From NCBI RefSeq assembly GCF_000376225.1, contig NZ_AQXL01000104.1, positions 1 through 33,244 of the forward strand: 33,244 bases of DNA, read 5' to 3'. The notes beneath the pieces were generated by a model that was given only the letters and a program-made list of their open reading frames with translations, had not been told where the DNA came from and did no database searches. Positions 30,364 through 33,124 of the stretch are shown here, piece after piece. Within the stretch, counting starts at the first letter, position 1, and every line of letters begins with the position of its first letter. A program made the translations under genes and the position numbers. Source of the DNA: Effusibacillus pohliae DSM 22757. Its GTDB lineage: Bacteria; Bacillota; Bacilli; Tumebacillales; Effusibacillaceae.

Positions 30364-31623
30364 ATGCAAAGCATGCTGCATCAAGCCGACCAATTGCGTG
30401 CGCGTATTGCCGGTTGGTACTCGTCGATTCCGGCCGTGGTCTGGATCCTGTTCACAGGCGGGCTGCTCAATTCGATCGGCAATTCCTTTCTCTGGCCGCT
30501 CAACTCGCTTTACATCCATACTGTGCTCGGCAAAAGCATGACAACCGCCGGCATCGTACTGATGCTGATGAACGGAGCGGGCATTCTGGGGAACCTGGCC
30601 GGCGGCGCCCTGTTTGACCGGATTGGCGGAAAATGGGTGATCCTCGTGGGGCTGTTGGGATCGGCCGTTTGGGTGACAGCGCTCGGATTCACTCACTCGT
30701 TCCCTCTGTATGTCGCGCTGATGATCACGCTCGGTTTTACGCAAAGCATGGTGTGGCCGTCGTTTCACGCGTTAATCGGACAGCTATGGCCGTCCGGTGG
30801 GCGCCGGGCGTTCAACATGTTCTATGTGGTGAACAACCTGGGAGTCGCGATCGGGACGGCAATCGGCGGATTTCTGGCGGAGATCTCGTTCTTGCTGGTT
30901 TTTTTGCTAAACGGATTGTCGTACTCGCTGTACGCGGCGATTTTTCTGTATGCGCTTCGCCGGCATCGCGTCCCTGAGGAATCGGACAGCCTGGATCCTG
31001 CGTCAGCTCTCCCGGAAAATCAGCCTGCCGCAGTCACCCAAACGGCCGTTTCCATCGCGGCGCCGGTCGCCCTTTTATCGATCGGCATTCTGATCGCGTG
31101 GACCGCTTACTCCCAGTGGGCCGGTCCTCTGGCGGTCTACACACAACAAGCGGGCTACCCGCTATCCTCCTACAGTTTTCTGTGGACGTTGAACGGGATC
31201 CTGATCGTCGCGGGACAGCCGTTTTTGACTCCCCTGCTGAGCAGATTTTTACGCAGCCTGACCTTGCAACTGATAACAGGCGGCCTTCTGTATGTGGCAA
31301 CATTTGTGTTAATCGCCGGATTCCCCGTCTACACCGGTTTTGTGCTAGGTATGGCGGTGATGACGATCGGCGAGATGATCATCCTGCCCGGCGTGCCCGC
31401 CGCCATTAACCGGTTGGCGCCAAAAGAGCGGATGGGGTTCTACCAGGGAATCACCGCCAGCGCCGCAACGGCCGGACGCATGCTGGGACCGGTGCTGGGC
31501 GGCATGGTGTTCGACCATGCGGGAGCGATCCGTTTGTTCCTGTTGGCAGCCATCGCCTGCCTCGCGGCAACTGCCTGTTTTGTCGGGTTTCACCTGTCTT
31601 CAAAAAAATGTCCTGCAGAATAG
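30364..31623 (+). CDS. MFS transporter
   Basis: 419 residues with twelve predicted helices. Start ATG at 30364 with AAAGGG 8 bp ahead. The conserved loop 2-3 motif appears as GGALFDRIGGKWVILVGL (about residues 80-97), the drug/H+ antiporter signature form of motif A. Helix 5 contains VNNLGVAIGTAIGGFLAE, the motif C region of DHA-type exporters. Substrate unknown; multidrug or metabolite efflux is likely. A carbonic anhydrase remnant follows on the same strand. Confidence 0.87.
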   Translation: MQSMLHQADQLRARIAGWYSSIPAVVWILFTGGLLNSIGNSFLWPLNSLYIHTVLGKSMTTAGIVLMLMNGAGILGNLAGGALFDRIGGKWVILVGLLGSAVWVTALGFTHSFPLYVALMITLGFTQSMVWPSFHALIGQLWPSGGRRAFNMFYVVNNLGVAIGTAIGGFLAEISFLLVFLLNGLSYSLYAAIFLYALRRHRVPEESDSLDPASALPENQPAAVTQTAVSIAAPVALLSIGILIAWTAYSQWAGPLAVYTQQAGYPLSSYSFLWTLNGILIVAGQPFLTPLLSRFLRSLTLQLITGGLLYVATFVLIAGFPVYTGFVLGMAVMTIGEMIILPGVPAAINRLAPKERMGFYQGITASAATAGRMLGPVLGGMVFDHAGAIRLFLLAAIACLAATACFVGFHLSSKKCPAE

Positions 31624-31649
31624 CCGAAACACAAGGAAGAATTGTGCGA

Positions 31650-31901
31650 ATGGCAGACAAAACGAATCTGCAGCGAATCCTGGCAGCGAACGAAGTTTGT
31701 CAATGACCGGGAGTACAAATCGTATCAAACGGATAAATTCCCCGACCGGCGAATGTTCATTCTCACCTGTATGGACACCCGTTTGGCTCGGCGATGCATT
31801 CCATCTTGAACGCTGTGCATATGCTGGAAGGGTTGCTGATCGATCCGCATACGGGAAAACTGGAGCTTGTGGTGGACGGTTATCAAGCATCAGTCAACTG
31901 A
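31650..31901 (+). pseudogene. Beta-carbonic anhydrase remnant with internal deletions and frameshift
   Basis: From the ATG at 31650 (AAGGAAG ahead) the frame reads MADKTNLQRILAANE, then breaks; in the next frame FVNDREYKSYQTDKFPD and MFILTCMDTRL follow, the N-terminal zinc-binding region (Cys, Asp, Arg) of a YvdA-type beta-carbonic anhydrase. At CACCCGTTTG the reading jumps to a middle piece, HPFGSAMHSILNAV, and then to the C-terminus GLLIDPHTGKLELVVDGYQ, ending with TGA at 31899-31901. The HxxC zinc ligands are gone. About 84 codons remain of roughly 190. Confidence 0.85.
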
Positions 31902-31949
31902 TGTTCCCTGTCTCTCGTTATTGCTTCGGAAAGGTAAAATTTACGAATT

Positions 31950-31978
31950 TTTCTTTTCGAAAAGATGTATAGTATAAT
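31950..31978 (+). promoter_or_regulatory. Promoter of the riboswitch-yugP transcript
   Basis: Perfect TATAAT (31973-31978) with a weak TTTCTT -35 (31950-31955) at 17-bp spacing. Transcription would start about 31985, at the first base pair of the riboswitch. Confidence 0.6.
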
Positions 31979-31984
31979 TGTGGC

Positions 31985-32086
31985 GTAAGGGGAGTAGCAA
32001 CCGGATGTTCCGGTCGGCATATCGTCACTACGGCAGCCCGGCTGCCCGGTATGTCGGACCCGTTGGTGGGTTACGCAAGACCTTCA
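31985..32086 (+). ncRNA. Mn2+-sensing yybP-ykoY riboswitch aptamer
   Basis: All conserved blocks of the yybP-ykoY class are present in order: AAGGGGAGTAGC (31987-31998), a hairpin (ACCGGA-TGT-TCCGGT), ATCGTCACTACGGCAGCC, a GC-rich hairpin, and the closing GCAAGACCTT (32075-32084), which pairs with the 5' AAGG to form P1. Loops L1 (GGGGAGTA) and L3 (CGTCAC) build the Mn2+ site. The class senses Mn2+ and normally switches genes on. It is followed by a terminator that shares P1 bases and then by a YugP-type gene. Confidence 0.93.
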
Positions 32087-32111
32087 TGCACTGCGGCGTG
32101 AAGGTCTTTTT
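32077..32111 (+). terminator. Riboswitch expression-platform terminator
   Basis: AAGACCTTCA (32077-32086) pairs perfectly with TGAAGGTCTT (32099-32108), followed by TTTTT. Its left arm is also the 3' side of aptamer helix P1, so ligand-bound aptamer and terminator exclude each other: Mn2+ should allow read-through. Confidence 0.9.
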
Positions 32112-32147
32112 GTATATCTATACATTCAAAAGGGGGAGTATGGAAAC

Positions 32148-32840
32148 ATGCTGTTTCACCCGATGGACATCCTCATCTTTATCGCCTTTGGCCTTTCGCT
32201 CTGGGCACAGTTCAAGGTCAAGGGCAATTTCAGCAAATGGGAGCAGGTGCCCGCTTCCTCCGGCTTGACGGGCGCGCAGGCGGCCCGCATGTTGCTCGAC
32301 CGCCAGGGGCTGTATGACGTGCCGGTCGAACCGGTGCCCGGTGCTCTGACCGACCATTACGATCCGATTGATCGGGTTGTGCGTCTCTCGGAACCGGTTT
32401 ATTACGGCACTTCGATCTCGTCTCTGTCGGTCGCCTGCCATGAAGTAGGACACGCGATTCAGCACAAGGTGCATTACCCGATGCTGGTGCTTCGCCACCG
32501 GATTTTCCCGGTCGTCAACTTTGCGTCGGGCGTCGCGCCGCTGCTGCTGTTGGCCGGCTTCTTTCTGCACGCCGCGAACCTGATCGGCCTGGGCATCATC
32601 CTGTTCTCGGCTGCCGTCGCCTTCCAGGTGATCACGCTGCCGGTCGAATTCAACGCAAGTTCCCGTGCGAAAGCGTTGATGCTGTCGGAAGGATTTATCC
32701 GCAACGAAGAAGAGCGTGGTGTCAATCAGGTGCTCGGGGCCGCGGCGCTGACCTACGTGGCGGCCGCACTGATCTCCCTGCTGGAGCTGGTCAAGTACAT
32801 CCTCATCTTCATCGGACAGACACAGCGGGAAGAGGATTAA
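32148..32840 (+). CDS. yugP: YugP-type zinc-dependent membrane metallopeptidase
   Basis: 230 residues, start ATG at 32148 with GGGGGAG 9 bp ahead. The zincin motif HEVGH (residues 98-102) lies in SVACHEVGHAIQHK; the third ligand is probably the Glu in PVEFNASSRA (about residue 167). An N-terminal helix (about residues 5-22), two helices in the middle (about 122-155) and one near the C-terminus (about 200-222) anchor it in the membrane. The YugP/DUF2268-like family (Zn_peptidase_2) has no well-established substrate. Control by a Mn2+ riboswitch is unexpected; see the findings. Confidence 0.9.
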   Translation: MLFHPMDILIFIAFGLSLWAQFKVKGNFSKWEQVPASSGLTGAQAARMLLDRQGLYDVPVEPVPGALTDHYDPIDRVVRLSEPVYYGTSISSLSVACHEVGHAIQHKVHYPMLVLRHRIFPVVNFASGVAPLLLLAGFFLHAANLIGLGIILFSAAVAFQVITLPVEFNASSRAKALMLSEGFIRNEEERGVNQVLGAAALTYVAAALISLLELVKYILIFIGQTQREED

Positions 32841-32854
32841 TCTGCCGATCGAGT

Positions 32855-32911
32855 AGGAGGGGGCGGCTAATCCCCCGTCCTCTCACACCTAGCATGCGGG
32901 TCCGCACTAGG
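32855..32911. repeat. Two adjacent GC-rich stem-loops
   Basis: AGGA-GGGGG (32855-32863) pairs with CCCCC-G-TCCT (32872-32881). CCTAG and TGCGG (32888-32899) pair with CCGCA and CTAGG (32902-32911). The sequence after the yugP stop resembles stretches often seen near group II introns or insertion sequences, but no intron or transposase is visible here. Confidence 0.45.
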
Positions 32912-32957
32912 CGGTTCCGAAAGGTTGACGAAGTTCCGGATAACGAACAAGCATGTT

Positions 32958-32995
32958 ACCGCTCACGCTATTTGGCGGCGAGTGAGCGGTTTTTT
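32958..32995 (+). terminator. Terminator-like hairpin; carries the 20-bp repeat shared with the left edge
   Basis: ACCGCTCAC (32958-32966) and GTGAGCGGT (32982-32990) form a perfect 9-bp stem followed by TTTTTT (32990-32995), a good intrinsic terminator for yugP read-through. Bases 32959-32978 (CCGCTCACGCTATTTGGCGG) recur, inverted, at 172-191. Confidence 0.7.
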
Positions 32996-33024
32996 GTCAT
33001 GTTCAATGTCGGAGGATTCTTCGG

Positions 33025-33064
33025 ATGATTGTCGTATCATGATCCGTATCGTAACGACAATCAT
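33025..33064. repeat. Inverted repeat, 11-bp perfect arms
   Basis: ATGATTGTCGT (33025-33035) and ACGACAATCAT (33054-33064) flank an 18-bp centre containing ATCATGAT. No T-run follows. An excellent GGAGGTGA ribosome-site sequence (33069-33076) comes next but no start codon stands at the right distance. Confidence 0.55.
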
Positions 33065-33080
33065 TACGGAGGTGAAAAAA

Positions 33081-33124
33081 GGAAGAGAGACCCTGCAGGT
33101 TGGCCGCCTCTGAGTCTCTCTTCC
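33081..33124. repeat. Inverted repeat, 11-bp perfect arms
   Basis: GGAAGAGAGAC (33081-33091) and GTCTCTCTTCC (33114-33124) around a 22-bp centre. A third small stem, CCCGGT / ACCGGG (33129-33144), follows at once. The row of hairpins looks like mobile-element ends or a regulatory leader. Confidence 0.55.

Follow-up and report, generated by a model that had tools for sequence, protein, structure and literature searches.

The window analysed here, a 33,244-nucleotide stretch of Effusibacillus pohliae DSM 22757 DNA, carries upstream of yugP a terminated RNA leader that the original prediction had assigned to the Mn2+ riboswitches. This raises the question of whether the leader belongs to the yybP-ykoY class and, if it does, what control by Mn2+ would mean for a gene whose product is predicted to be a membrane peptidase and not a transporter or a TerC protein.

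The leader upstream of yugP and its class

The yybP-ykoY (Mn2+) riboswitch was located at window positions 31983-32111, on the plus strand and 5′ of yugP. The features of the locus are as follows.

31973-31978, plus strand: putative −10 box TATAAT, recognised by eye, with no good −35
31983-31990, plus strand: P1.1 5′ strand (GCGTAAGG) with the core AAGG at 31987-31990, able to pair with 32081-32089 around a bulged C32085
31991-31998, plus strand: L1 5′ strand (GGAGTA) and P1.2 5′ strand (GC), invariant in 29/29 aligned RNAs, which were picked by a pattern that includes most of this stretch
32000-32014, plus strand: P2 hairpin, ACCGG/CCGGT, from the model alignment
32015-32056, plus strand: P3.1 (32015-32021/32050-32056), L3 with CGTCA (32022-32031), P3.2 (32032-32036/32042-32046) and the conserved CGG (32047-32049), with compensatory changes in P3.1 and P3.2
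32058-32071, plus strand: P4 hairpin, ACCC/GGGT, from the alignments, the least supported helix
32075-32080, plus strand: P1.2 3′ strand (GC) and L1 3′ strand (AAGA); GCAAGACC is invariant in the same 29/29 pattern-selected RNAs
32077-32111, plus strand: intrinsic terminator with a 13-pair stem (32077-32089/32096-32108) and a T-run (32107-32111), from the terminator scan and folding
32148-32840, plus strand: yugP, encoding a 230-aa predicted membrane zinc metallopeptidase (PF04298; HEVGH at residues 98-102; E167)

The transcript would start near 31983-31987, given the TATAAT box; this box is separated from the GGGG by 10 bases in the window and by 11 bases in the relatives L003 and L005, and it is not among the sites listed by a strict promoter scan. 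The conserved core that the original prediction had reported was found again in three blocks, GGGGAGTAGC from 31989, CGTCACTACGG from 32023 and GCAAGACC at 32075-32082, so that the window RNA contains the L1 (GGGGAGUAG), L3 (CGUCA) and 3′ strand (GCAAGAC) blocks of the class. The three-block pattern was present in 148 of the 398 class genomes, and a reversed control pattern in one (G049) among the matches listed, a difference beyond chance. Since all the RNAs were first chosen by a pattern that contains these blocks, the invariance of the blocks is built in, whereas the helices were not selected in this way.

A match to the Rfam family RF00080 had been proposed as the test of the assignment, and its absence as the refutation. 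This test turned out negative for the window RNA at every threshold used: there was no match at the gathering score (45 bits, which the window RNA does not reach), a local scan with E as high as 5 did not report it either, and a search of its own genome at E up to 10 returned another place only. However, the result is not decisive, because sister leaders before TerC also fall below the cut-off (24.2 bits against 45 for the leader of the TerC gene, PF03741, of the same genome) and because, of 14 well-known control genomes, just 2 gave a match above it. At 20 loci, RF00080 gave 14 matches, four of them reaching 45 bits, indicating that members of the class cannot be told apart by this cut-off here; the family model was blank at the YugP-type loci L002, L003, L005 and L006, the Aneurinibacillus-type loci L025 and L026, and the TerC-like locus L016.

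We therefore used two purpose-built models. R1 was built from four YugP-type and three Aneurinibacillus RNAs, and it recovers TerC leaders, including all four RNAs that pass the RF00080 gathering score; over eight whole genomes it gave 16 matches, of which four lie before yugP, 10 before TerC-like genes and one by a contig end, with one unexplained. R2 was built from 21 other leaders with no YugP-type RNA among them. In this training set 19 leaders precede TerC-like genes by eye (one of these genes was checked with Pfam), L036 lies before another gene and for L053 no gene was read. R2 gives a single match in the window, at this RNA (51.8 bits, E 7.8e-12), and it also detects the three other yugP leaders and gives nothing at the motif-less yugP paralogue L120. 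The argument that the lack of an RF00080 match means the lack of a riboswitch was dropped, because sister leaders before TerC are also below the cut-off and an independent model detects the window RNA. At the level of sequence and modelled structure, the RNA 5′ of yugP is confirmed as a member of the yybP-ykoY class, and together with the Aneurinibacillus RNAs the YugP-type RNAs form a recognisable common subtype in P2, P3 and P4.

The four-way junction of the class (P1.1, P1.2, P2, P3 and P4) was found with covariation, which was measured in three alignments. Among seven sequences, double changes occur in 5 of 28 pairs, and the share of paired cells is 98.0%, compared with 94.9% after shuffling; of five measures, two were equalled by shuffles (53/500 and 403/500) and three by none. 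With 32 sequences aligned to the model, double changes are seen at 23 of 28 pairs, counts that lean upward since this alignment was fitted to the structure, and a MAFFT alignment of the R2 set showed them at 16 of 25 pairs. P4 has the lowest support (92.9% of cells paired in the seven sequences, 67.9% in the R2 set), and P1.2 never varies, so that covariation is silent on it.

The best Rfam match of the window RNA, a weak one far under threshold, is SSRC10 (RF02617; 18.7 of 56 bits). SSRC10 is reported as a Northern-positive sRNA located 5′ of a putative calcium transporter gene in S. pyogenes (PMC3675131), and in S. agalactiae a Ca2+/Mg2+ ATPase gene has a leader that is annotated as yybP-ykoY and described as responsive to acid stress and pH (PMC4448216). 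The two may well be the same leader; SSRC10 is then probably a leader of the Mn2+ riboswitch class, because its likely S. agalactiae counterpart is annotated as such. RF02617, although filed as an sRNA family, thus resembles a cation transporter leader of this class.

Predicted competition between P1.1 and the terminator

The terminator had been claimed to be exclusive with the aptamer, and on paper this is right, both by pairing and by energy: the P1.1 3′ strand (32081-32089) lies wholly within the terminator 5′ arm (32077-32089). When the transcript is folded without constraint up to 32094, it takes the aptamer form, with P1.2, P2, P3 and P4 present and the P1.1 strands paired, although shifted out of register by one base (31988-31991 with 32081-32084); the energy of this fold is −45.9 kcal/mol, and forcing P1.1 into register gives −44.9 kcal/mol. 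Once the transcript extends to 32115, the terminator form reaches −61.4 kcal/mol, compared with −47.3 kcal/mol for the form in which P1.1 is forced. The terminator wins once its 3′ arm is made, and Mn2+ would therefore need to stabilise P1.1 in order to allow read-through.

Folding of four relatives placed AAGG/CCUU in register in L001 and L005, paired the strands out of register in L003 and left them unpaired in L006. A different P1, GCGUAA/UUACGC beside the terminator, was rejected since it does not transfer to the relatives, whereas AAGG/CCUU, which falls within the terminator arm, recurs in the majority of them.

When Mn2+ is low, the terminator 5′ arm AAGACCUUCAUGC would pair with GCGUGAAGGUCUU and transcription would stop at 32111. 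At high Mn2+, the aptamer docked through L1 and L3 would hold P1.1 (31983-31990 with 32081-32089), no terminator would form and yugP would be transcribed. Stabilisation of P1.1 by Mn2+ leading to read-through is the mechanism reported for L. lactis (PMC11087558); contrary to this, one review terms Mn2+ riboswitches OFF switches (PMC11477304).

YugP and the distribution of the RNA-yugP pair

The original prediction that the next gene encodes a membrane HExxH peptidase agrees with what we found. The yugP ATG (32148) lies 36 bases past the T-run, which ends at 32111, and the product matches PF04298 (Zn_peptidase_2, the YugP family) over residues 8-221 with 289.3 bits (E 2.3e-86). The full-length match, the HExxH motif and a further conserved Glu place it in this family, and H98, E99, H102 and E167 are invariant across 65 homologues. 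The AlphaFold2 model has a mean pLDDT of 95.2 and contains long helices, which, together with the B. subtilis namesake (PMC13393411), point to a location in the membrane. A sequence search for solved relatives gave none at E up to 1, and Foldseek with the model gave nothing at E 0.001 or better. Against gluzincins of the M48/M56-like fold the matches carry little weight (abylysin 4jiu, E 0.8, probability 0.85 in Foldseek), and the values against BlaR1 (Z 5.4) and BepA (Z 5.2) are both within background. The literature searched, as far as it was available in part, names no proven YugP substrate; for B. subtilis, YugP appears there in a study of spore germination whose subject is YpeB (PMC13393411).

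The coupling of RNA and peptidase was present in all four genus genomes examined, but in the samples examined it was seen only inside the genus, and it is thus not a general YugP property. The four genomes contain five yugP genes, four of which are preceded by the RNA, at least one per genome; the second yugP of one genome (the G001 paralogue) is without it. R1 at E up to 10 gave no match upstream of 63 yugP genes outside the genus and of the G001 paralogue, a survey comprising 60 stretches that reach some 900 bases upstream (about 500 for L066, at a contig start), three order-level loci and the paralogue. R2 over 67 stretches gave a single weak match (E 0.055, L126), located downstream of yugP, and a comparison by eye of yugP and motif positions found no yugP outside the genus beside a motif among the matches listed. 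A wide association of YugP with the RNA was consequently rejected for these samples, and yugP itself was found in 318 of the 398 class genomes. In a collection of named genomes that is described as covering 84,980 species and may leave out records close to the window's own genome, the subtype pattern was present in three contigs, one from a MAG of the genus, with yugP, and two from Aneurinibacillus. In a tree of 65 YugP proteins the four RNA-linked copies are not on one side of a branch, so that loss of the leader and transfer are not distinguishable.

The surroundings of the pair vary. A carbonic anhydrase gene lies upstream in L118 (by eye) and L121 (by Pfam), and the surroundings differ in L119. 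Window positions 31640-31900 contain, by eye, an out-of-frame and shortened remnant of a beta-carbonic anhydrase gene, at whose place an open frame is present in G002 (L118, by eye) and G003 (L121:780-1367, Pro_CA). A 6S RNA gene is located near yugP in the relative G002 (L003:594-787, 81.3 bits).

Other leaders of the class were observed in unusual settings. In Aneurinibacillus (L055:4952-6691, L025, L026 and L057) the RNA subtype most similar to that of the window precedes a kinase-like gene without a Pfam match, followed in L055 by EcsC (PF12787), which makes a second unusual target of the leader. In L047-L049 a leader lies, by eye, before a Spo0M-like gene; in L047 this gene is preceded by a gene for a small basic protein and a TerC-like frame follows. 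Paired Mn2+ riboswitch-like RNAs about 1.1 kb apart are found in L036 (468-567 and 1492-1604, minus strand) and L039 (1491-1590 and 2582-2680, plus strand). The window's genome has a third Mn2+ riboswitch-like RNA (G000:C88:337-448, L196, 28.3 bits), where the contig ends before any downstream gene.

A possible role for YugP in the response to Mn2+

In the window's genome, the TerC gene is preceded by a leader of the same kind as that of yugP. Our explanation, which we regard as likely, is that a Mn2+ riboswitch turns yugP on at high Mn2+ and that YugP aids the clearance of membrane proteins alongside TerC. Taken alone, the regulation of yugP by Mn2+ is highly probable, with ligand and direction extrapolated from the family. 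The role of the product is put forward more tentatively: YugP may act, beside the co-regulated TerC, in membrane proteolysis under Mn2+ stress, where the predicted HExxH peptidase would remove or trim membrane proteins that excess Mn2+ has damaged or mismetalated. TerC proteins of B. subtilis are reported to co-purify with the membrane proteases FtsH and HtpX (PMC10550928).

Outside the genus, the neighbours of yugP bring in another side of metal transport. A CNNM gene lies beside yugP on the same strand, with a gap of up to 195 bases, in 13 of 60 neighbourhoods from five families, and a MerR-type gene lies just upstream, with a gap of up to 207, in 14 of 60; both are raw counts without a background rate, and both are lower bounds because a single protein of each kind served as query, with a cut-off of E 1e-5. 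The loci with an adjoining CNNM/CorC exporter gene are L124, L127, L128, L133, L134, L137, L148, L149, L156, L161, L162, L166 and L180, and a MerR regulator gene is just upstream in five of these 13. The G001 yugP paralogue is also part of a MerR-CNNM-yugP cluster. MpfA-type CNNM proteins are reported to export Mg2+, and their loss to relieve Mn2+ toxicity in B. subtilis with certain strains and media but not with others (PMC11332163, PMC9334652). On this view YugP would be a candidate for regulating the Mg2+/Mn2+ balance; the link to the CNNM exporters is suggestive. Each of the four genus genomes has one rhomboid. MgtE and CNNM were both considered as YugP substrates and set aside, MgtE since the four genus genomes gave no match, and CNNM in the window's genome (99.85% complete) since PF01595 gave no match there.

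These neighbourhoods (at least 13/60 yugP beside CNNM and 14/60 after a MerR gene, and the G001 cluster) are what speaks for YugP being a regulatory protease of CNNM/MpfA-type transporters, induced by Mn2+ and cutting a Mg2+ exporter, so that Mg2+ would be retained and Mn2+ tolerated. It is also in line with the relief of Mn2+ toxicity in B. subtilis by loss of MpfA or by suppressors in the MerR gene yhdQ (PMC11332163, PMC9334652). The same work reports, however, that the mpfA mutation helped an efflux-deficient strain with glucose only and that a yqgC-sodA strain was not rescued (PMC11332163), and given a genome with no CNNM match and four genus genomes with no MgtE match, we consider this role rather unlikely for the window's yugP. 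For the same reason the general membrane-proteolysis reading is favoured. That YugP simply needs Mn2+ as its cofactor, the switch allowing its synthesis only when Mn2+ is at hand, would fit the predicted metal-dependent active site and the four residues (H98, E99, H102, E167) invariant in 65 homologues; the Pfam annotation, however, is that of a putative zinc metallopeptidase, and these residues are also present in the sampled homologues that lack the switch, which makes it very improbable.

The ligand itself could be another divalent metal, to which the aptamer would be a tuned variant and yugP would answer. According to one review, variants of this sort are to be expected where yybP motif RNAs are linked to odd genes (PMC7266159). 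A recognisable subtype does precede yugP and, in Aneurinibacillus, the kinase-like gene (with EcsC in L055), but in L1 (GGGGAGUAG) and L3 (CGUCA) it does not differ from the aligned TerC leaders, although these were selected by a pattern that includes both blocks. We know of no selectivity residue that is changed, and we regard another ligand as improbable. Even further from what we expect, to the point of being most improbable, is a terminated leader that acts mainly as a small RNA while yugP is read from elsewhere. The Northern-positive SSRC10 is the best Rfam match (18.7 of 56 bits), but it precedes a putative calcium transporter gene and is probably itself a yybP-ykoY leader (PMC3675131, PMC4448216), and a strict scan of 31600-33100 listed no plus-strand promoter-like site, a scan that also misses the likely promoter of the leader.

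The Mn2+ riboswitch that we propose for yugP is of a known kind, and yugP as its target gene is the new part. The RNA is like the RF00080 type of L. lactis yybP in its L1 and L3 blocks, its P1.1-P1.2-P2-P3-P4 junction and the position of the P1.1 3′ strand inside the terminator (PMC11087558), and differs from it in falling below the RF00080 thresholds, in its own P2/P3/P4 subtype and in having a peptidase gene downstream instead of a transporter or TerC gene. The Mn2+ riboswitch targets named in the literature that was available to us in part are transporters, ATPases and TerC proteins. No pairing of a yybP-ykoY RNA with YugP was found in the literature searched at the level of titles, abstracts and passages, and the tables of Dambach 2015, Price 2015 and Martin 2019 could still list the pair.

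Regulated membrane proteolysis in Mn2+ stress is already a known idea, since the rhomboid YqgP is reported to cleave MgtE in B. subtilis (PMC7231995). The YqgP-FtsH-MgtE system resembles the one proposed here in that a membrane protease is tied to Mn2+ stress, but YqgP is a rhomboid with its own Mn2+-binding domain, whereas YugP is a predicted zincin under control at the level of transcription. TerC/MeeY proteins, in turn, are under a Mn2+ riboswitch (PMC10550928), a leader of the same kind that is present in the same genome, but TerC is described as a metal transporter or chaperone and YugP is a predicted peptidase. The YugP of the B. subtilis spore inner membrane (PMC13393411), studied for germination, bears the same name and is presumably of the same family.

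Since RF00080 misses this subtype, at four YugP-type and two Aneurinibacillus loci, surveys of Mn2+ regulons based on it are likely incomplete. A Mn2+ riboswitch driving a membrane peptidase could signify that the cell answers Mn2+ stress with programmed proteolysis, either of mismetalated exported proteins or of a divalent-cation transporter, a reading that we advance as a possibility somewhat short of even chances. If true, YugP would be a metal-linked protease family, with a Mn2+ switch in this genus and MerR and CNNM genes elsewhere. The conserved leader before a gene for a predicted membrane peptidase also gives a starting point for studying what the widespread YugP family does.
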